Source: Lentisphaerota bacterium
GTDB lineage: Bacteria > Verrucomicrobiota > Lentisphaeria > Victivallales > Victivallaceae
Length of the DNA stretch: 48,764 nt
Direction: 5' to 3'
Assembly (NCBI GenBank): GCA_015061495.1
Contig: SUWL01000012.1
Coordinates: 1-48,764, forward strand
A program made the position numbers and the translations under genes. Shown in pieces: positions 22,567 to 41,726 of this stretch (position 1 is the stretch's first letter; each line of letters starts with the position of its first letter). Below the pieces are notes generated by a model. It was not told the DNA's origin. It saw nothing but the letters and a program-made list of their open reading frames with translations, and did not search any database.

Positions 22567-22980
22567 TTACATGTCGGCAAGCATCAATATCGTGAACCGG
22601 AGCAGTTTGAAGTCTTCTCCTTCGTAATAGAGTACCTGCTTGTTGTCGCTGTAACGGTAAATGCGGTTGTTTTCCATGTAATAGAGCTGCTTGTTGTCGC
22701 TGTAACGGTAAATGCGGTTGTCTTCAAAGTAAAAGAGCTGTTTGTTGTCGCTGTAACGGTAAATGCGGTTGTCTTCCATGTAATAGAGCTGCTTGTTGTC
22801 GCTGTAACGGTAAATGCGGTTATTTTCCATATAATAGAGCTGCCGGTTGTCGTTATAGCGGTAGATCCGGTTGTTTTCGGTGTAATAAAGTTGCCGGTTG
22901 TCGCTGTAGCGATAGTATTTCGCATCGGCAAATGCGGTGCAGGCGGCAAGTACGGCGATAAGCAGAAGTATTGATTTCAT
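22567..22980 (-). CDS. Secreted protein of six 17-residue Tyr/Asn-rich repeats
   Basis: 137 residues. Residues 1-20 are a clear signal peptide (MKSILLLIAVLAACTAFADA); the rest to residue 124 is six near-identical units with consensus YRYSDNKQLYYMENNRI, then a short non-repeat tail. Alternating aromatic/polar residues with central Asp-Asn turns suggest a beta-hairpin or beta-solenoid stack. No family is recognised; there is a loose resemblance to YD/MORN-like hairpin repeats. AAGGA precedes the ATG. It follows the 590-residue membrane-protein gene by 15 bp and is probably its operon partner. Confidence 0.75.
   Translation of the reverse strand: MKSILLLIAVLAACTAFADAKYYRYSDNRQLYYTENNRIYRYNDNRQLYYMENNRIYRYSDNKQLYYMEDNRIYRYSDNKQLFYFEDNRIYRYSDNKQLYYMENNRIYRYSDNKQVLYYEGEDFKLLRFTILMLADM
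22609..22914 (-). repeat. Six tandem 51-bp coding repeats
   Basis: Six in-frame copies of a 51-bp unit coding the 17-residue repeat. The central units differ by only a few bases, so the array is recent or homogenised; the outer ones are more diverged. Confidence 0.9.
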
Positions 22981-29800: not shown

Positions 29801-30580
<780 letters not shown>

Positions 30581-30831: not shown

Positions 30832-31563
30832 TCAGGGTTTTTGGAATGTTCCGGCGAAAGTATACCAGTAGGCAGGTCCCGTATCGCCGGCATTGAATTT
30901 TGTACCGATATCCACGGCGAAATCACTGTAAATCGGTTCGGCATGACCGTCGGCAAAGGCGATATTGGCACTTTTGTTATGCCAGAGACCCAGAGGGTTG
31001 TTGCTTTTTACCTGTTCATACTCGCCTCTGGTAAAGTTGGTAAGTGTACCATTGCTTACTTCAGTTGCCAGGTGGGCAAATGTGCCGTAATGGTTGGCGG
31101 TTCCCAGACACTCCATGAAATAGGGCAGTGTTGAAGTGTTTTTTATCCGGGTTATTTTCATCGGAGCATCGGCAGCAGAGCTTCTCAATGCAGAGTTAAG
31201 TGCGTAATGCAGATAGACCTTTTCGCCATCCGGAAAGCCCTGGTTGTAGCCGAGGCTACGGTGAGTCGGGGCAGTCGGACAGGTCGCTACATCGGCATTG
31301 TAGCCGTACAGGTTGTAAAATGTCCGGTACCAGTACATCCACAACGGACTTTCACACTCATTGCCTTTGGGGAAATGGTCTTCAAAATCATTACAGTACT
31401 GCATTCCGAAACTTGCCAGCTGTTTCATATTGTTGAGACAACTGGCATTTCTGCCGCGCTCTCTGGCAGAGTTTAGCGCAGGCAATAAAATCGCCGCTAA
31501 AATGGCGATTATTGCGATGACGACGAGCAGTTCGATCAGGGTGAAGCCCATGGGCTTCACCAC
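30832..31563 (-). CDS. H-X9-DG pseudopilin with leader disrupted by tandem duplication
   Basis: 243 residues as read from GTG 31563 (MVKPMG then [18 protein letters not shown]). The C-terminal half has [18 protein letters not shown], the H-X9-DG motif. The ancestral start, matching the paralog's MKQHSPR, is ATG 31624, but a 34-bp tandem duplication (31541-31608) puts that start out of frame with the pilin body. Translation may restart at GTG 31563, which has GGAG five bases upstream within the duplicated palindrome. Otherwise the gene is switched off. Removing one 34-bp copy restores a perfect [20 protein letters not shown] leader. Confidence 0.8.
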
Positions 31564-31608
31564 GGAGCTCCGTGGTGAAGCCCATGGGCTTCACCACGGA
31601 GCTCCGTG
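31541..31608 (-). repeat. Perfect 34-bp tandem duplication made of two palindromes
   Basis: Copies at 31541-31574 and 31575-31608 are identical. Each is a 20-bp perfect palindrome centred on CCATGG followed by a 14-bp perfect palindrome centred on GAGCTC. The intact pseudopilin has a single, imperfect version at 30531-30564. Confidence 0.95.
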
Positions 31609-31659
31609 GTGAATGTTGTTTCATTGAAATTGATTCCTTTAAATTTTCAGTGTTTTTTT

Positions 31660-32510: not shown

Positions 32511-33782
32511 TCACCGTTTCCGGCAGAATCTGCTCCCGGAAGCGGCAAATGCGAGCGCGGAAATTACCGCAAAGGAACTTAATATTCCCCACAGCATCAG
32601 CGGCGGAACTTTGCCGAAAAGCTGCCCGCCGATCCACGGCCCTGCCGAATAACCGATGCCGCGCATCAGGGAACTTGCCGACATCATCCTGCCGGCATTG
32701 CTGCTGTTCGCTTCAGCAGATACCGCCGTGTACAGCGCCGGCTGGATGACGATCTCTCCTGAAGTAACAATGATCACCGCCGCCGCAATGAACCACGCTC
32801 CGCAAGCAAAGCCCAACTGCCAGTATCCCACCGTATAAAGTACCGATCCCAGTATCAGCTGGATGGTCAGCGGCACCCGCATTCTGGTGAGCAATGCGGT
32901 TACCGGCAGCTGCAGCACCAGCACCATAAAGCCGTTCAACGAGTAGATGGAACCCAGTGCCTGATTGGAAATCCCCACGCTTTGAGTGGCAAATACCGAC
33001 ATGGTGGAGTAGAGCTGCGAAGCAAGCGTCATCAACAGCAATGTCCCAAACATCAGCAGAATAAAGCGCGGATTGCCGGATATCGTCCGCATGATCGACT
33101 CTTCTTTTGTCACTGCACCGGAGGGTGTTTTCTCGGTGCCAATGCGGTTGTCAGCACTGTTTTGACAGCAGGTTATCCGGGTGTAAAATGTCCCGGCGAC
33201 ACAGAGCAATCCGGTGATTATGAAAAATGCCCAGAAGGGGGTTTTCGCAAAAAATGCCCCCAGCATGGGACCGGTCGCCCAGCCGATATTGTAACCGATG
33301 CGGATTTTTCCGTAATAGGAGGGGCGTTCCTCCGGCGCGGCAATGGACACCAGATAGGCATCTGAACCGACTTGAAATGCGCACCCCACTGCCGTGTTGA
33401 ACATCAATGACACCGCAAACATCCAGAAGGGTGCTTCGATATAGACCAGAAACGCCAGAAAGAAAAAGATCACTCCCCGCAGCAGTTGTCCGGCAAGCAT
33501 CATTTTTCCGTGACCGAATTTATCCGTCAGCCAGCCGCAGGGCAGCGGAGCGAGGATCACCGCCAGTCCGAGCAGGGGAAATATCAGACTGACCTGCGTG
33601 TAAGGCATCCCTCTTTGCTGATAGAGGTAGATCGGGATAAAGGGATAAACAATGGCGTATGCCAACTGGTTGAAACTCCATGCCGCAGCCAGGGAAATTC
33701 CCTTGTTGCGGCACAGGTCGCGGAGAAATTGCACAGCCAGGGAAATTCCCTTGTTGCGGCACAGGTCGCGGAGAAATTGCAT
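32511..33782 (-). CDS. MFS transporter with duplicated N-terminus
   Basis: 423 residues, twelve predicted membrane helices, with GWLTDKFGHGKMMLAGQLLR between helices 2 and 3 as the MFS loop motif. Substrate unknown; general layout of sugar or drug MFS. The first 32 residues are two copies of the 16-residue segment QFLRDLCRNKGISLA preceded by M and V: a perfect 48-bp tandem duplication covering the start region. Either ATG 33782 or GTG 33734 could start translation, with the second giving the normal-length N-terminus. Confidence 0.85.
   Translation of the reverse strand: MQFLRDLCRNKGISLAVQFLRDLCRNKGISLAAAWSFNQLAYAIVYPFIPIYLYQQRGMPYTQVSLIFPLLGLAVILAPLPCGWLTDKFGHGKMMLAGQLLRGVIFFFLAFLVYIEAPFWMFAVSLMFNTAVGCAFQVGSDAYLVSIAAPEERPSYYGKIRIGYNIGWATGPMLGAFFAKTPFWAFFIITGLLCVAGTFYTRITCCQNSADNRIGTEKTPSGAVTKEESIMRTISGNPRFILLMFGTLLLMTLASQLYSTMSVFATQSVGISNQALGSIYSLNGFMVLVLQLPVTALLTRMRVPLTIQLILGSVLYTVGYWQLGFACGAWFIAAAVIIVTSGEIVIQPALYTAVSAEANSSNAGRMMSASSLMRGIGYSAGPWIGGQLFGKVPPLMLWGILSSFAVISALAFAASGSRFCRKR
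33686..33781 (-). repeat. Perfect 48-bp in-frame tandem duplication at a gene start
   Basis: 33686-33733 and 33734-33781 are identical, adding 16 codons to the MFS N-terminus. The base after each copy differs so that one copy reads ATG and the other GTG as first codon. Confidence 0.95.
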
Positions 33783-40928: not shown

Positions 40929-41726
40929 ATGAATATTGATGCACTCTTGGATAAGATGATCCAGCCGGTGATTTTTCCGCAGGACACCATCAACGAATGG
41001 ATCGATCAATGGCAGGGGAAACTGATTTTTCCGGAAGCCGTTTCCATAAACCTTCCGGAAACGCTGGAACTTTTCCGGAAAAGTTCTGATCCTGCAGAAA
41101 AAGAAAAACTCACTTTGCAGATGTTTCAGGCGAAGTTTCCGGAAATCGTAAAAATGGTCCGGAAAGAACCGATGCATCATGTGCCGCAGGATGAACATAT
41201 TTTTGCCGGGTGTTACGGCTTCTGGAAAGTTTTGGAAGCTTTTGATCCGGAGAATGATATCAATTTTGATCAATTTTGTCTCTTGCATATCAAAAAATTC
41301 ATGCGCTCGATCGGATACAACTATTATGTGGGCAAATTGAAGCATAAACTGGAAAAAGATACCAATATCAAAGTCTGCTTCTGCTTTGACGGAAGTTACA
41401 CTGTTACCGGAGCAATGCTCTATTTTCCGGATAAAAATGAGGAATGGGAGGGGGAAGAAGCTGCATATTGCCCGGTTGATCCGGAGCAGGATCTGGCAAA
41501 ATATCCGGATGTGATCCAGCGGATCTTCCGGGAACAGGGTGTCGGAAATGTACACCATGTCTATCTGGAATCCCGGGTTCACGGCACTGATAAGGTGCAA
41601 ATTCTTGCCGAAATGATCGAAATGTCTGCTATTTTGCAATTCGGCTGGAAACTTGCCCCGCTGCCGGTATGTGAAGATGATATCATCTGGGAAGAGTATC
41701 AGCAAAGCAAAATGGAGGGTGAATAA
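40929..41726 (+). CDS. Unknown protein with a sigma-70 region-2-like segment
   Basis: 265 residues from ATG 40929 (GGAG upstream; an earlier ATG at 40914 is possible). Around residues 90-125 it reads DEHIFAGCYGFWKVLEAFDP then FDQFCLLHIKKFMR, which parallels sigma-70 region 2 (D..QEG..GL.KA.EKFDP....FSTY....I...I.R). A clear region 4 was not found, and the rest matches nothing known to me. It may be a divergent sigma-like or anti-sigma-like protein. The next gene follows by 1 bp after an internal GGAGG, so the two are translationally coupled. AT-richer than the core genes. Confidence 0.55.
   Translation: MNIDALLDKMIQPVIFPQDTINEWIDQWQGKLIFPEAVSINLPETLELFRKSSDPAEKEKLTLQMFQAKFPEIVKMVRKEPMHHVPQDEHIFAGCYGFWKVLEAFDPENDINFDQFCLLHIKKFMRSIGYNYYVGKLKHKLEKDTNIKVCFCFDGSYTVTGAMLYFPDKNEEWEGEEAAYCPVDPEQDLAKYPDVIQRIFREQGVGNVHHVYLESRVHGTDKVQILAEMIEMSAILQFGWKLAPLPVCEDDIIWEEYQQSKMEGE

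Follow-up and report, generated by a model that had tools for sequence, protein, structure and literature searches.

The pseudopilin gene at 31624-30832, on the minus strand of a 48,764-nt contig from a Lentisphaerota bacterium (SUWL01000012.1, in its whole length called the window here), begins in an exactly duplicated palindrome that throws its start codon out of frame. This leads to the question whether the duplication is an accident that disabled a single gene or one position of a switch shared by many such genes. The locus itself, the leaders of related pseudopilin genes and the duplications found among them are considered in turn.

The duplicated leader at 31624-30832

The gene product scores over the curated cut-offs of PF07963 (25.3 bits versus 21.2) and PF07596 (27.2 versus 23.3) and matches TIGR02532 with 27.5 against a cut-off of 16.3; it carries the prepilin N-terminal motif of a type IV pseudopilin (N_methyl / DUF1559). 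The features of its leader, copy 1 being the upstream copy as read on the minus strand, are as follows.

30832..31545, minus strand: pseudopilin body, open frame from FTLIELLV to the stop codon, with PF07963 (N_methyl) and PF07596 (DUF1559)
31540..31613, minus strand: two-unit array, the 34-bp unit twice plus the FT codons, from repeat search and TRF
31580..31613 and 31546..31579, minus strand: copy 1 and copy 2 of the unit
31590..31613 (copy 1) and 31556..31579 (copy 2), minus strand: palindrome P1, 24 bp (TTCACC..GGTGAA)
31574..31595 (copy 1) and 31540..31561 (copy 2), minus strand: palindrome P2, 22 bp (GGTGAA..TTCACC), its 3' arm in copy 2 being the FT codons TTCACC
31556..31613, no strand: perfect 58-bp palindrome made by the duplication, from a loop-free palindrome scan
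31540..31595: second perfect palindrome, 56 bp, from the same scan

A preliminary description had proposed a 34-bp unit, itself two perfect palindromes, in exact tandem duplication. The duplication was confirmed by a repeat search, in which 31540-31573 and 31574-31607 are two 34-nt copies with 100% identity, and by TRF, which reports a period of 34, 2.2 copies and 100% matches over 31540-31613. Both palindromes are indeed perfect, but instead of the 20 and 14 bp first given they measure 24 and 22 bp and overlap by 6 bp, the middle GGTGAA being common to both; likewise, the interval 31541..31624 has to be replaced by an array at 31540-31613 and an ATG at 31624-31622. The sequence of a single unit is TTCAC-CACGGAGCTCCGTG-GTGAA-GCCCATGGGC; next comes TTCAC, which encodes the Phe-Thr of FTLIELLV. 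The leader unit presumably adjoins the prepilin-peptidase site, as we take it from the motif. Folded as single-stranded DNA, 31535-31618 gives -39.7 kcal/mol with a z of -11.08. Apart from the leader array, the longest loop-free palindrome in a scan of the window is a perfect one of 20 bp at 41067-41086. The window also holds an exact 48-bp tandem duplication near the array (33686-33781), a multiple of 3 at the N-terminus of an MFS transporter reading frame, and a 51-bp repeat of 5.4 copies with 87% matches at 22636-22908.

The consequences for translation depend on the following start and stop codons and on a paralog with a single unit.

31622..31624, minus strand: ATG start, not in frame (+1), an upstream element lying at 31635-31640
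31591..31593, minus strand: TGA stop in the FTLIELLV frame, at -48 of the FT codons, where GTGAA of copy 1 is read G TGA A
31561..31563, minus strand: GTG, possible restart (MVKPMG)
31558..31560 and 31549..31551, minus strand: GTG and ATG, further possible restarts
29801..30580, minus strand: paralog with a single unit, an in-frame ATG and P1 at 30546-30569

From the ATG at 31624 to the FT codons at 31545 the distance is 79 nt (3 x 26 + 1), which does not keep the pseudopilin frame, whereas in the paralog, whose P1 equals that of the array at 22 of 24 positions, it is 45 nt (30580 to 30535) and in frame. The early claim that the ATG is out of frame here and would be in frame with one unit or four is thus borne out. 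A further suggestion, that the duplication brings a Shine-Dalgarno-like GGAG ahead of GTG 31563, does not hold: this GGAG lies inside every unit copy, so the duplication did not create it. At this locus itself translation may restart at GTG 31563, and an internal GTG or ATG could still yield a short leader; as a general outcome of the duplication, restart is not supported by the two-unit loci described below.

Hairpin leaders across the genus keep shape more than sequence

The window's assembly (G000) contains 82 pseudopilin matches at E 0.001. Leaders were fetched for 80 of these, the remaining two lying in the window; an FTLIEL-like motif was seen in 70 of the 80 and was absent in 10. For relatives of the same genus, leaders were fetched for part of the pseudopilin matches, and loci L274-L303 were read in part. 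Leaders were left out if fewer than 60 nt were available upstream, if they lacked FTL[IV]ELLVV[IV]A or if they duplicated another leader (the two-unit leader L028 was one of those dropped), which left a set of 214 leaders from six genomes.

Inverted repeats with arms of at least 10 nt occur at -60..+8 of the FT codons in 111 of the 214 leaders (G000 36/61, G003 15/20, G007 12/20, G010 9/34, G011 24/40, G012 15/39). In the region +80..+148 of the same genes, arms of at least 8 nt were found in 2 of 74, and none of the 214 leaders reached an arm of 8 nt when shuffled once base by base. A larger control consisted of 2887 windows of 119 nt each, taken from the window and the fetched loci with the leaders masked; arms of at least 10 nt occur in 11 of these versus 113 of the 214 leaders at -110..+9. 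The P1P2 palindrome pair is present in 88 of the 214 leaders, leaving 126 without it. In a further type of leader (L095, L116, L140, L284), successive hairpins split by CTTCA (e.g. ..KASASCLPQANASCSNAALHTAEPCF..) likewise stand directly before FTLIELLV.

The pattern GTRAA, 10 nt and the TTYAC codons of FTLIE was found at 29 places in G000, whereas the reversed pattern, used as a control, gave 0. A covariance model for the unit gave 61 matches in G000 at E 0.01, read in part, some of which are second-strand hits on the same palindrome. Searched against 148 genomes of the class, the model matched below 1e-8 in 14 of the 20 genus members listed, in four genomes of genus g23 of the same family (G135, G142, G144, G149) and in three of another family of the order (G128, G152, G147); no best match below 1e-8 was found in the remainder of the 148. 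Six genus members are matched weakly or not at all; weak matches outside could come from the FTLIEL codons in the model alone. A scan of genome contigs gave six distant loci.

Conservation of the two palindromes was assessed in sets of 71, 110 and 115 leaders, all chosen for GTRAA at -15, so that the fixed place of the unit within them is a matter of selection. In the 71 leaders, 83.0% of cells in P1 are paired versus 59.8% when shuffled, with a covariation score of 0.633 versus 0.204; for P2 the values are 90.8% versus 72.7% and 0.502 versus 0.166. Slid controls for the covariation score gave 0.09-0.20, and counts of cells changed on both sides also place P1 and P2 far above shuffles and slid controls. 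Two coarser measures on the same leaders, pairs changed on both sides and further pair types, did not exceed the shuffles. The sequences under this common shape are diverse, with 62 distinct cores for P1 and 49 for P2 in the 71 leaders and 108 distinct leader peptides in 115. The synonymous wobble base of Phe (TTT/TTC) agrees with the R of GTRAA in 70 of 71.

How pairing is kept can be followed in 67 pairs of close leaders. Both partners had changed and still matched in 34 base pairs, while pairing was lost or gained in 59; correction is therefore strong, though not immediate. Within G011, for instance, L122 and L127 differ over 58 nt at five bases only, all in P1; two pairs changed on both sides there and are still paired, and one pair was lost. 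Mismatches in the 110 leaders comprise 27 G:U versus 34 A:C (P1 15 versus 24, P2 12 versus 10). The absence of a G:U excess over A:C points to complementarity kept in DNA rather than in mRNA, though P2 leans slightly to G:U (9 versus 3 for P2 alone in the 71 leaders).

The leader also accommodates inserts of another kind. Cassettes with their own FTLIELLV lie in frame behind the host FTLIELLV, sometimes nested, in G137 (L305-L313), in G000 (L034, L036, L041, L046, L047, L053, L055, L059, L063, L067, L073, L081) and in L095 of G007, which has three FTLIELL copies. One cassette with small changes recurs in 9 of the 10 G137 leaders fetched, which had been chosen for equal model scores, and in 8 of those 9 both FTLIELLV copies fall within the stretch. 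These cassettes look like mobile repeats using the leader as a safe landing site.

The duplication recurs and breaks the reading frame

Exact two-copy forms were found at 22 loci in nine genomes, with a period of 34 in 21 loci and of 35 in one. G000 has five, G011 and G116 four each, G067 three, G087 two, and G007, G076, G135 and G134 one each; the locus in G135 (L289) belongs to another genus of the family. In the sampled set, 9 of the 214 leaders have two units, whereas tandems with a period of 28-42 and an exact run of at least 20 occur in 1 of the 2887 control windows. A further 40 leaders had been picked by covariance-model score, and their two-unit share is not a rate. With two units in 9 leaders and the palindrome pair in 88 of the 214, the relatives do not all carry a fixed two-unit form with the GTG start. 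Three units were seen in none of about 298 leaders, and the 214 include no clear OFF leader with zero units.

In the 21 loci with full flanks the exact repeat overruns its period by 2-8 nt, so that the unit edge and the FT codons have 2-8 nt in common. At L244, copy 2 begins with TTCAT as the edge of copy 1 does, and not with TTCAC as the gene. At 12 of the 22 loci the cores are not self-complementary, and there copy 1 and copy 2 carry them in the same orientation. Copy 2 is for this reason not thought likely to stem from fold-back copying of the hairpin; slippage between short direct repeats that flank hairpins would leave such a pattern.

The effect on the frame is uniform. At all 21 loci with upstream sequence, at least one ATG preceded by a Shine-Dalgarno-like element (a 4- or 5-mer match) is out of frame, and by arithmetic one period fewer puts it in frame; L322, L325 and L335 have such ATGs in other frames as well. 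A stop codon lies at -48 of the FT codons in the pseudopilin frame, inside copy 1, at 21 of the 22 loci, formed by GTRAA or, at L244, by ATGAA. Five of the 214 leaders meet a stop before any start codon, and all five are two-unit leaders; two more have no start, and no stop either before the stretch ends. After the stop an in-frame start is present at 10 of the 22 two-unit loci, 31624-30832 included, and there is none at the other 12. The open frames behind two-unit leaders are nonetheless intact in all ten for which the search gave a length of 174-271 aa: 252, 236, 174 (L026, the shortest), 236 and 252 aa in G000, 249, 244, 262 and 271 aa in G011, and 248 aa in G007. Exact copies in front of intact genes suggest that the duplications are either very young or still turning over. 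The frame break alone is no proof of selection, because it follows from the geometry of a unit of 34 or 35.

A frame-breaking palindromic unit with the geometry for slippage, put forward in the preliminary description for a single gene, is well supported and recurrent (22 loci, nine genomes, open frames in 10 of 10); the proposal is thereby widened to a gene family and, as regards mechanism, largely upheld, with slippage as the probable route.

A proposed duplication switch and its alternatives

On balance, we favour the view that the leaders form a structure-conserved, sequence-diverse duplication switch across the pseudopilin repertoire, in which one unit is ON and two are OFF. The typical unit would be TTYAC, 14 palindromic nt, GTRAA and 10 palindromic nt, directly before the TTYAC (Phe-Thr) of FTLIELLV. 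In this proposal two hairpins would be flanked by a short direct repeat, formed by the FT codons and by the unit's 5' edge. This is a classic geometry for slippage, and it is because of this arrangement that the unit would duplicate, going to two copies and presumably reverting. The period of 34 nt (3n+1) would then shift the upstream ATG out of frame, and the pseudopilin frame would meet a stop in GTRAA of copy 1 (G TRA A), giving the OFF state. That a polymerase can slip on a hairpin flanked by short direct repeats has been described in vitro, with deletions as the outcome, in the part of PMC4134008 consulted. Slippage as the mechanism, its reversibility, variation of unit number within a population and selection for switching are what we infer; the comparison covers one consensus genome per species. 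Against the switch speaks the fact that simple slippage should make some three-unit or zero-unit forms, yet no three-unit and no clear zero-unit form was seen. The 126 of 214 leaders without the P1P2 pair, the two coarser covariation measures and a possible internal start at 31624-30832 weigh against it too.

The duplications might instead be accidents at a fragile palindrome, the two-unit genes being fresh null alleles rather than a switch in use. The hairpins would then be kept for other reasons, as a structure-specific recombination or insertion site or by template-switch repair that keeps the arms complementary. We hold this to be possible but rather unlikely. The in-frame cassettes ending in their own FTLIELLV behind the first FTLIELLV fit such a site, and the finding that G:U (27) is not commoner than A:C (34) in 110 leaders makes complementarity at the DNA level seem the thing that is kept. 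SbcD, a hairpin nuclease subunit, is missing above the cut-off in the two-unit carriers G000, G007 and G011. It was found over the cut-off in 5 of 21 genomes, the genomes being incomplete, and among the six leader-sampled ones in G010 alone, which has no two-unit form in 34 leaders; but G003 and G012 lack SbcD and have no two-unit form in 20 and 39 leaders either, so the pattern is a mere note. Accidents would also have to account for intact frames in 10 of 10 and an exact duplicated stretch in 22 of 22, signs of very young or turning-over duplications, and for the excess of two-unit forms over control windows (9/214 versus 1/2887). The searches in the genus also gave no consistent Y1 transposase and no integron integrase above the cut-off.

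Two readings place the effect in expression of the gene rather than in its loss. In one, P1 and P2 are mRNA hairpins that exclude each other through GTRAA, forming an attenuator or translational switch of which the duplication is a side effect. The two mutually exclusive, covarying stems and the slight lead of G:U over A:C in P2 (9 versus 3 in 71 leaders, 12 versus 10 in 110) agree with it. As a structured cis-regulatory RNA, however, the leader combines strong covariation with no overall G:U excess (27 versus 34; in P1 15 versus 24), the spacing between ATG and unit spans 5 to 242 nt among 65 of 66 leaders with a Shine-Dalgarno-like ATG (GTRAA at -15 set), and Rfam returned eight miRNA models only, each below its gathering score. 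We hold this reading to be quite improbable. In the other, a two-unit gene is still expressed with a shorter leader from GTG 31563, GTG 31560 or ATG 31551 in copy 2. The in-frame starts after the stop at 10 of 22 loci would permit this, whereas 12 of 22 have no ATG, GTG or TTG there, the GGAG-GTG is already present with one unit so that nothing new is created, and both GTGs sit inside the long stem of the two-unit fold, a fold of single-stranded DNA and not of RNA. Such a leader swap is very improbable as the explanation.

The array could finally be a product of assembly, if a de Bruijn graph ran in a loop through the palindromes and so wrote the unit twice. The data are MAG consensus sequences only, a contig end is less than 0.5 kb away at three of the 22 loci (L028, L278, L283), and short k-mers are ambiguous at 31540-31613 because both cores there are self-complementary. 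Yet the other 19 are farther than 0.5 kb from any contig end, nine separate genomes show two units and none shows three, and the 12 loci with non-self-complementary cores keep the same orientation in both copies, which looping through a reverse complement should not do. An artefact of this kind is therefore very improbable.

Known partners of palindromic elements were also searched for. For REP/RAYT elements, PF01797 (Y1 transposase) was without a match in the hairpin carriers G001, G003, G011 and G012, which are incomplete MAGs, and had one match in G000. For integron attC-like sites, TIGR02249 exceeded its cut-off in 2 of 21 genomes and in 0 of the 13 of the genus, with weaker matches below the cut-off in all 21. 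No Rfam family was assigned, the eight miRNA models being below their gathering scores.

Relation to known systems and meaning of a switch

Palindromic DNA within protein-coding genes is also a feature of the palindromic elements of Rickettsia. Those elements are a sequence-conserved family found in unrelated genes, whereas the sequence of the pseudopilin leaders is not conserved, and all 40 places picked by the model precede FTLIEL codons, partly since the model contains them. The proposed switch may work like the duplication-based phase variation of the pneumococcal capsule. The segments duplicated there are reportedly ordinary coding sequence at single genes, unlike the single double palindrome of near-fixed length and free sequence that stands here before the same codons in many paralogs. 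Capsule variation of this kind has been described for the type 3 locus, cap8E and tts (Waite et al. 2001, 2003; PMC4022640), and in the part of PMC4022640 consulted, as proposed here, a spontaneous tandem duplication within a reading frame turns a surface trait off, reversion being mentioned as possible.

Tandem duplications are counted among the mechanisms of localised hypermutation in the consulted part of a review (PMC4235727). The simple-sequence-repeat contingency loci treated there are alike in that the frame of surface genes depends on unit number close to their 5' end; the pseudopilin leaders likewise have a 5' repeat unit whose copy number changes the frame, with an intact frame behind it. 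They differ in having one or two units of 34 bp, three being seen at no locus, in place of a run of many short-unit copies, and a sequence of their own at each locus. Perfect inverted repeats are kept in functional coding sequence of nematomorph mitochondria as well (PMC6649704, consulted in part); these are animal mitochondria with the arms in conserved protein regions, in contrast to the variable leader and frame-breaking duplications found here. No description of a double-palindrome leader switch was found in the open-access literature searched, the coverage of which is partial.

Whether the switch extends to a genome-wide contingency system, in which double palindromes at the prepilin cleavage site of dozens of pseudopilin genes per genome toggle between one copy (ON) and two copies with a built-in stop (OFF), we regard as evenly balanced. 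If it does, a population would display many pseudopilin combinations, and as each switch has its own sequence, one paralog could switch without recombination with another. The GTRAA-10 nt-TTYAC pattern makes the device easy to look for, and the leaders form a natural series in which the duplication and reversion of palindromes flanked by short direct repeats can be studied. If the favoured reading is right, a large gene family would hold in its leader codons a phase-variation device kept as a shape of DNA, not as a sequence, and a large pseudopilin family of uncharacterised function would gain combinatorial expression.
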